Shown here piece by piece: positions 8,147 through 22,701 of a DNA stretch of 23,999 nt. This DNA is from a virus. The notes below the pieces were generated by a model. It ran no database searches. It had not been told where the DNA came from and was given only the letters and a program-made list of their open reading frames with translations. The DNA is taken from the IMG/VR virus record IMGVR_UViG_3300031669_000233, positions 1 through 23,999 of that record. The stretch is one strand, 5' to 3'. A program made the translations under genes and the position numbers. Every line of letters begins with the position of its first letter. Within the stretch, counting starts at the first letter, position 1.

Positions 8147-8161
8147 GTAACAATTTGTTAC
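8147..8161. promoter_or_regulatory. 15-bp palindrome GTAACAAWTTGTTAC, copy 2
   Basis: Reads GTAACAATTTGTTAC on the plus strand, a perfect 7+1+7 dyad. It lies 8 bp beyond the stop of the 60-residue basic gene and about 80 bp before the start at 8069. On the minus strand a TATAAC follows 6 bp later, which could be a -10 element. Confidence 0.75.
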
Positions 8162-14535: not shown

Positions 14536-14550
14536 GTAACAATTTGTTAC
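14536..14550. promoter_or_regulatory. 15-bp palindrome GTAACAAWTTGTTAC, copy 3
   Basis: Perfect GTAACAATTTGTTAC between terminase and portal genes, 5 bp after the terminase stop and 28 bp upstream of the portal ATG. On the minus strand TATAAT follows 9 bp later (plus coordinates 14521-14526). If that were a -10 box, the transcript would start almost at the portal ribosome site, so its promoter role is doubtful. Confidence 0.75.
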
Positions 14551-20249: not shown

Positions 20250-20284
20250 TGATAGTGTGCAGAATAAAGAGTTTACAACGTGAA

Positions 20285-20321
20285 GCATGTGCACGAATTC
20301 ACATGCAATATACGATTGGAG
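20285..20321 (+). promoter_or_regulatory. leader hairpin plus conserved ribosome site, unit 2
   Basis: GCATGTG (20285-20291) pairs with CACATGC (20300-20306) over an 8-base loop, followed by ATACGATTGGAG (20310-20321), identical to unit 1, then the ATG at 20328. The stem differs in sequence from unit 1 but has the same loop length and place, which suggests that structure is being kept. Confidence 0.5.
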
Positions 20322-20327
20322 ATTAAC

Positions 20328-20630
20328 ATGAACAACACACAGACGAAATCACGTTGCAAGATTGCAGACGTTACGTACAAAAGTAGCGTGACGATTATCT
20401 GGGATGATTGCACAGTTGAAGATGTACAAGCACTCGCAGCGCAGAAAGTCGTCAATAAGTTTCAGCAAGATGCACGCGAAGCTGGGAAAGCTGTTGCTGA
20501 AAATGTCACTCTGTATGCAAGAGATTACAAACAGGGATTGCGTAAAGCTGCGCAAACTCCAGAGCAGATACTTGCTAGCTTGAGTGAAGATCAACTTATC
20601 CAGTTGATGAAAGACAGGGGTTTGATGTAA
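20328..20630 (+). CDS. small early protein, unknown function
   Basis: 100 residues from the ATG at 20328, fixed by the GGAG site of the shared leader. Residues 1-25 form strands (KIADVTYKSSVTIIWDDCTV), residues 30-60 a long helix (EDVQALAAQKVVNKFQQDAR), and the C-terminal 25 residues a second helical part (TPEQILASLSEDQLIQLMKD). The layout strand-strand, DCT.ED, helix, then a C-terminal LS..QL..L recalls small early phage proteins that I have seen as hypothetical. No catalytic motif. Transcribed from its own promoter; followed by a hairpin at 20648. Confidence 0.65.
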   Translation: MNNTQTKSRCKIADVTYKSSVTIIWDDCTVEDVQALAAQKVVNKFQQDAREAGKAVAENVTLYARDYKQGLRKAAQTPEQILASLSEDQLIQLMKDRGLM

Positions 20631-20677: not shown

Positions 20678-20707
20678 GCTGCATCTGCCTTCTTTGTGAA
20701 AAAGGGC

Positions 20708-20722
20708 GTAACAATTTGTTAT
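20708..20722. promoter_or_regulatory. 15-bp palindrome, copy 4 (one mismatch)
   Basis: GTAACAATTTGTTAT: the last base departs from the dyad. It lies at the left edge of the 9-bp repeat region, 25 bp before the first unit. This is the only imperfect copy of the five. Confidence 0.65.
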
Positions 20723-20746
20723 GGGATTTGTTAAGATAATATGTGA

Positions 20747-20924
20747 AGTGTTGTATATGTTAGTAGTGTTGTATATGTTGGAAGTGTTTTCAGTGTTAGT
20801 AAGTGTCATATGCTCTTAAAAAAATATTTAAAAAACAAGCATGCAGCTTACTAACATCATTAACACTCGCAACACGTGCAACATCACTAACACGTGCAAC
20901 ACTTGCAACACTTGCAACACTCTG
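20747..20924. repeat. bipartite 9-bp tandem array forming a 57-bp inverted repeat
   Basis: Left arm 20747-20809: seven 9-bp units, the first six with TGTT at the same place (AGTGTTGTA, TATGTTAGT, AGTGTTGTA, TATGTTGGA, AGTGTTTTC, AGTGTTAGT). Right arm 20853-20924: eight 9-bp units that start AACA (for example AACACGTGC, AACACTTGC twice). Aligned as inverted arms, 20747-20803 and 20847-20903 match at 42 of 57 positions, and several mismatches would be G-U pairs in RNA. Between them lies an AT-rich core (20815-20839) with the inner arms TGTTAGTAAG/CTTACTAACA. Candidate replication origin, operator array or structured RNA. The 9-bp step also keeps an open frame through the right arm, giving a Thr-x-x repeat that I do not believe is a protein. 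Confidence 0.8.
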
Positions 20925-20939
20925 TCACGCTGCTATAAT
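20912..20939 (+). promoter_or_regulatory. sigma70-like promoter at the right end of the array
   Basis: TTGCAA (20912-20917) and a perfect TATAAT (20934-20939) with 16 bp between. The -35 is inside the last repeat units, so a protein bound to the array would control it. It would drive the gene at 21013 with a leader of about 65 bases. Confidence 0.5.
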
Positions 20940-21012: not shown

Positions 21013-21492
21013 ATGGCAACAATGAAGGCTGGAATGGTCACGACCGTTCGCATCTCCCCGAAGGATTGTATATCCATTCTGGACATATTGGACGTGGCGC
21101 AGGTGAGGAGGGACAATATGTCCTTCGCATCCTGTACATCCCTTGCACTGTCCAGTTTGATTGGGATGGCCCGACAGGCAGGCATCATTGAGGAGCCGGA
21201 TGGGTTTGCGTTCCTTGATAAGGTTGGCCCGTATAGGGATGGGAAGAATAATAAGGTGAAGAGGCTGACTTCCAATAGCCTGTACCTAGCGGCACAACAC
21301 GGCTCTGCTGCAATCTCCCTCCCTCGTGTTAATACAAGTATGCCGCCGCAAGTCATGGAGGAGCAGGCCCTCCGTGAACTGAAGGACAGGTTCACAAAGT
21401 TGAATGACCGGAAGGAGGCAGACATTCCCCTCTCAATGGAGGAGGAACAGGAATGGCAAGCATGCTTCTCTGTCCTATATCCGGATGGTTGA
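21013..21492 (+). CDS. conserved-looking early phage protein, unknown function
   Basis: 159 residues starting MATMKAGMVTTVRISPKDCI. The segment VRISPKDCISILDILDVAQV, then RRDNMSFASCTSLALSSLIG and MARQAGIIEEPDGFAFLDKV is mostly helical and recalls small phage proteins with a ribbon-helix-like or helical N-terminal region. A Glu-rich helical C-terminus follows (MEEQALRELKDRFTKLNDRK). No catalytic motif. The ribosome site AAGGT is weak; a second Met three codons later is an alternative start. Its promoter lies in the repeat array, so it could be the array-binding protein, but nothing in the sequence proves that. Confidence 0.65.
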   Translation: MATMKAGMVTTVRISPKDCISILDILDVAQVRRDNMSFASCTSLALSSLIGMARQAGIIEEPDGFAFLDKVGPYRDGKNNKVKRLTSNSLYLAAQHGSAAISLPRVNTSMPPQVMEEQALRELKDRFTKLNDRKEADIPLSMEEEQEWQACFSVLYPDG

Positions 21493-22686: not shown

Positions 22687-22701
22687 GTAACAAATTGTTA
22701 C
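22687..22701. promoter_or_regulatory. 15-bp palindrome GTAACAAWTTGTTAC, copy 5
   Basis: Perfect GTAACAAATTGTTAC, 5 bp after a stop codon and 38 bp before the next ATG (22740), the same position relative to genes as copies 2 and 3 but on the other arm. No TATAAT-like hexamer follows here. Confidence 0.75.

Follow-up and report, generated by a model that had tools for sequence, protein, structure and literature searches.

At the junction of the late and early operons of a phage fragment of 24 kb (the window, that is, the whole 23,999-nt stretch of DNA analysed here), two arms of short repeats in 9-bp steps face each other across an A-rich core (20748-20924), and this array probably works as a switch that is covered by protein and from which replication starts, resembling the origins of satellite phage P4 and of the phage-inducible islands. 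This reading rests on the array and on its architecture, which relatives conserve, on where it lies, on a core of low stability, on its overlap with a promoter and on its co-switching with the neighbouring gene product, p21013. The features of the region are as follows.

20708..20722, no strand: palindrome GTAACAATTTGTTAT, one of five copies in the window, at the edge of the block common to close relatives.
20736..20763, minus strand: weaker mirror-image promoter-like site CTAACA-16-TATTAT (9/12), overlapping the outer left units.
20748..20801, plus strand: left arm of six RTGTTNNNN units at 9-bp intervals, whose unit cores are conserved in L001-L004 and L011.
20811..20846, no strand: A-rich core beginning TCTTAAAAAAATATTTAAAAAACAA, flanked by the two arms and proposed to melt; relatives whose sequence spans the junction have it at the same site.
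20853..20924, minus strand: right arm, eight AACAYNNNN units (NNNNAACAY type) in 9-bp step, mirroring the left arm.
20912..20939, plus strand: extended sigma70-like early promoter TTGCAA-16-TATAAT (10/12 consensus, TG before the -10), overlapping the last right-arm units.
21013..21492, plus strand: p21013 (159 aa), adjoining the array; best candidate for an array-binding protein.

All unit steps in both arms of the window are exactly 9 bp. The left-arm units read, in order, GTGTTGTAT ATGTTAGTA GTGTTGTAT ATGTTGGAA GTGTTTTCA GTGTTAGTA (20748-20801) and are followed by AGTGTCATA (20802-20810), and those of the right arm read AACATCATT AACACTCGC AACACGTGC AACATCACT AACACGTGC AACACTTGC AACACTTGC AACACTCTG (20853-20924). 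The seven plus eight units in strict step of the original prediction are thereby confirmed, the seventh unit on the left being degenerate. The inverted repeat that had been counted there as 57 bp with 42 of 57 matches was recovered by a repeat-finding tool as 58 nt at 74% (20746-20803 / 20847-20904), and the inner 10-bp arms, TGTTAGTAAG and CTTACTAACA, match perfectly, as had been stated. A scan for mirrored tandem arrays of any tetramer, unbiased as to motif, scored 14 units at the window site, and the same scan found zero mirrored arrays in 5.7 Mb of composition-matched random sequence.

Complete relatives of the fragment measure ~43-49 kb. The late genes (those for terminase, portal, major head protein and head closure) point leftward, the early genes rightward, and the array occupies the point where the two operons meet, between the ORFs at 20280-20630 and 21013-21492. 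The sigma70-like promoter predicted over the last units has its consensus match at 20912-20939, and, judged by eye, G006, G013 and G017 likewise carry sigma70-like elements at the outer part of the right arm; the minus-strand site with 9/12 matches is, taken alone, no better than chance. Matches to the DnaA box TTWTNCACA are at chance level (three scattered matches in 24 kb, one of them at 20695, outside the array), and the window holds no DnaA-box cluster of the kind that marks a DnaA-type oriC. The palindrome GTAACAAWTTGTTAC occurs at 1129-1143, 8147-8161, 14536-14550, 20708-20722 (the copy ending in T) and 22687-22701; it is found eight times per genome in G006, G009 and REEB109, widely scattered and nearly always intergenic, and is missing from G007, G008, G010 and G013. 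It looks like the site set of a phage regulator, independent of the array.

The array is kept in four close relatives whose p21013 is 96-99% identical (L001-L004) and in the fragment L011, which was found via its DNA pattern. Among these close relatives the unit cores are almost invariant, the spacers vary and the number of units changes by whole 9-bp units, with 6 or 7 clear units in the left arm and, in the right arm, eight AACAY cores in the window, seven in L001 and L004 and five in L002 and L003. The right arm of L004 contains a left-arm spacer, which suggests occasional arm-to-arm copying. Distant relatives were collected by a scan for the DUF3987 helicase that gave 15 contigs, most of which were then fetched whole; among the contigs covering the junction, an A-rich core with mirrored arms lies at the same place, in diverged sequence, in G006, G007, G008, G009, G010, G013 and G014, and the array is weak in G011 and G017. 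A period test over ten relatives gave lag 9 as the most enriched up to 20 (Stouffer Z 6.1), with lag 8 at Z 3.7 and all other lags from 4 to 20 at no more than 2.4, and the triplet counts left:right across ten relatives (TGT 87:12, ACA 14:83) reveal strong mirroring. When whole genomes were scanned without bias for mirrored arrays, matches fell at the junction site in the window, G002, G007, G008 and G013; PaP2 and a Desulfofustis phage, which are more distant DUF3987 carriers, gave no mirrored array at the scan threshold. Phage DNA and protein searches with the array region and p21013 returned no named relative, and a scan for five-unit AACAY arrays returned mostly contigs without a mirrored partner. 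In several distant relatives p21013 lies ~0.5-1 kb farther downstream of the array, which therefore belongs to the junction and not to one promoter-gene pair. Separately, a 44.5-kb relative contig (L213 / L223-L225) is binned in the MAG Pseudomonadota REEB109, and the host may therefore be a pseudomonadote, a binning artefact being also possible.

These comparisons bear on the view that the array is neutral, its tandem and inverted repeats having arisen by slippage and template switching. Such events do happen, as the gains and losses of whole units and the left-arm spacer in the right arm of L004 attest. However, the architecture and the 9-bp period persist where p21013 is only ~30-60% identical, and because the ~45-kb relatives keep the same architecture at the late/early junction although their sequence has diverged, we regard a neutral origin as highly improbable. 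The original prediction had named, as signs of slippage, relatives that lack the array or hold random unit numbers without a common phase; what we found instead is a preserved 9-bp phase, with variation limited to how many whole units are present.

A long RNA hairpin formed by a transcript that crosses the array could likewise account for mirrored arms: the plus strand folds at -72 kcal/mol with a z of -8.1 (minus strand, z -5.5), and in several relatives the arms are complementary beyond the cores. Yet any mirrored repeat folds likewise, neither predicted promoter would transcribe across the array, and all Rfam matches are sub-threshold. In the window and distant relatives, wobble-compatible mismatches number 21 on the plus versus 25 on the minus strand, with no preference (the window being counted once, and the balance being unchanged when L222 and the short match of G017 are omitted). 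Moreover, unit loss is confined to one arm and the unit numbers of the two arms change independently. Because of this lack of a G-U strand bias and the independent change of unit number, the structured-RNA option put forward in the original prediction is disfavoured, and we consider it very unlikely.

In six of ten genomes no 40-mer is less stable than the core, and in one genome the core comes second; its rank is 13th in the 24-kb window, 45th in G006 and 28th in G011. For five of the eight genomes compared, the minimum of the cumulative GC skew, which had been proposed as a check for an origin, falls no more than ~2 kb from the core, and in G006, G007 and G008 it lies ~5 kb away; this is compatible with an origin, but the signal tracks gene direction and is confounded by the divergent operons.

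As to the protein that would read the array, p21013 has homologues in G006-G011, G013, G017, G019 and REEB109. The REEB109 phage is informative in that its array is of the TGTGA type, like that of G006, and the window group has the TGTT type; its p21013 and e22002 are G006-type, and its e20280, e23130, e23412, PolA and DUF3987 proteins are nearer to the window group. Since the array and p21013 are both G006-type in REEB109 while DUF3987 is window-like, array and p21013 travel together. As a counterpoint, p21013 adjoins the array, so that hitchhiking could explain the co-switching, and e22002 switches too. However, e22002 was not detected in G007 or G013, both of which carry the array, and this leaves p21013 as the best candidate reader; we infer that its product binds the array. 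The N-terminus of the family reads as a strand-helix-helix pattern, two helices of which appear in the predicted model (pLDDT 68, fold uncertain). Profile searches of p21013 against Pfam, PHROG and the PDB gave nothing convincing and no Pfam ribbon-helix-helix match; of its 17 weak fold matches, four, all with non-significant scores, are to TCP-domain structures or to a transcription factor-DNA complex. A ribbon-helix-helix fold is thus put forward as a possible hypothesis, drawn from sequence pattern and model.

The DUF3987 protein, encoded ~15 kb from the array, is a candidate for the replicative helicase of the phage lineage. In L140 (5011-6237, minus strand) its model is that of an AAA+ helicase resembling MCM, with a winged-helix-like region at the C-terminus (pLDDT 73.8; matches to MCM helicases), and this agrees with a prediction by which DUF3987 domains serve as helicases in mobile elements (PMC5862659). 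It had been our first choice as array reader and was dropped, REEB109 having an identical C-terminus and different units. The corresponding explanation, in which the winged-helix-like region would read the units directly as origin iterons in the manner of P4 alpha and SaPI Rep, can point to the resemblance of the model to MCM AAA+ helicases, to the C-terminal domain by which SaPI-type Rep reads iterons (PMC7581432) and to the same array format at VapE-like helicase genes. We nevertheless judge it improbable: the window group and REEB109 share the final 75 residues at 100% identity, yet their units are TGTT and TGTGA, respectively, so that array type does not follow DUF3987, and the gene is far from the array.

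The main rival is that the array is an operator only, bound cooperatively by p21013 as an autoregulating early repressor or activator in the manner of the omega/ParB arrays of pSM19035, with the core serving as UP element or spacer and replication starting elsewhere. We take this to be possible, though doubtful. It would fit the overlap of promoter-like sites with the outer units, the switching of the array with p21013 and not with the helicase, the 15 kb that separate the helicase gene from the array, and the ribbon-helix-helix precedent of short direct and inverted repeats over promoters (PMC9499535). It leaves unexplained, however, why the core is the least stable stretch of the genome in most relatives, and why the array is so like the P4 crr and the arrays beside helicase genes. 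Ribbon-helix-helix partition proteins bind such arrays as well (PMC9499535), which brings in a centromere-like partition site; we noticed no ParA-type ATPase gene beside the array, the ParB domain of the lineage is fused to a methyltransferase, and we give this reading very little credence. The fusion itself, a ParB N-terminal domain joined to an N6/N4 DNA methyltransferase domain (L140, 9282-10517, minus strand), is found in the replication operon throughout the lineage.

We therefore return to a double array that combines both roles. Many copies of one early DNA-binding protein, most likely p21013, would bind the TGTT cores of both arms, so that a nucleoprotein block on each side faces the other across the A-rich core. 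The block on the right would cover the early promoter, and binding would therefore control transcription of the early (replication) operon; the core, placed under strain, would melt and become a replication origin, the entry point for the MCM-like DUF3987 helicase and the family A polymerase. As a whole this explanation is one towards which we lean modestly. Of the origin, operator or centromere-like and RNA options listed in the original prediction, a protein-binding array and an origin are supported and the RNA is not; binding, regulation and the start of replication at this site are what we infer. More tentatively, and with well under even confidence, we suggest that a small new DNA-binding family (possibly ribbon-helix-helix) coats the iterons, melts the core and loads the helicase, and that array and p21013 form a cassette exchanged independently of the replisome. 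Array and p21013 make a concrete, testable pair, and they amount to a natural exchange of binding specificity between replisomes that are otherwise alike.

The format recurs outside the lineage. A scan by DNA pattern turned up mirrored arrays in contigs unrelated to the lineage as well, among them L017, L013 and L012; in L017 and L013, VapE-like helicase genes lie beside or over the mirrored array, and L012, a 9.8-kb contig, has no recognised helicase. In L160 (6240-6570), likewise unrelated, mirrored RTGTCACNN 9-bp arrays come immediately after a VapE-like primase-helicase gene and are a likely origin, and in L013 (8524-8632) a mirrored ATGTTCCAC array lies within the VapE/DUF5906 helicase coding sequence, comparable to lambda ori, which sits inside the O gene. 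These VapE-like loci (L160, L017, L013) share with the window mirrored 9-bp TGTY arrays round a core at a helicase gene, but the helicase is of another family and the array comes directly after or inside its gene. Since 20 of 22 VapE-like loci tested have no mirrored 9-bp array with at least three units per arm, not all members of that helicase family have the format.

Among known systems, lambda ori and plasmid iterons likewise combine iterons with an AT-rich element; in lambda and RK2, however, the iterons are ~17-22 bp long, in direct orientation and on one side, and the units here are mirrored and of 9 bp. In the arrays of pSM19035 we know of no A-rich core between facing arms. The likeness to its omega/ParB heptads is that short asymmetric repeats lie in direct and inverted orientation over promoters, those of parS being 7-bp repeats bound cooperatively (PMC9499535). 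The window array shares this arrangement, its promoters being consensus matches only, and differs in its 9-bp unit from the contiguous 7-bp unit of pSM19035, which also has a ParA partner. In PICI origins an AT-rich region is always flanked by two sets of iterons (PMC6092414), and so it is in the array. PICI origins lie, however, directly 3' of rep, whereas the array is at the late/early junction of a 45-kb tailed phage with DUF3987 ~15 kb off; because it is not directly downstream of an initiator helicase gene, we do not file it in the PICI family. The P4 crr runs TGTTCACAC TGTTCACC, a T/A-rich stretch and then GGTGAATAATGGGTGAAGGGTGAACA, so that P4 crr / ori type I has in common with the array iterons with a TGTT core (TGTTCACC), in P4 at steps of 8-10 bp, in two mirrored sets on either side of a T/A-rich core; it has 2+3 units versus 7+8 here, and it adjoins the alpha gene. 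Its reader is the alpha primase-helicase itself, whereas the phage array follows a small separate protein. The mirrored iterons of P4 crr, the double sets of PICI origins and the direct and inverted repeats of pSM19035 show that the mirrored 9-bp step, originally thought to be an arrangement without known precedent, does have precedents. The array is thus a double iteron arrangement of the P4/PICI type in a new setting, with a different likely reader, and the presence of this known layout in a tailed-phage lineage and in unrelated helicase-bearing contigs may help in predicting where uncultivated phages have their origins.
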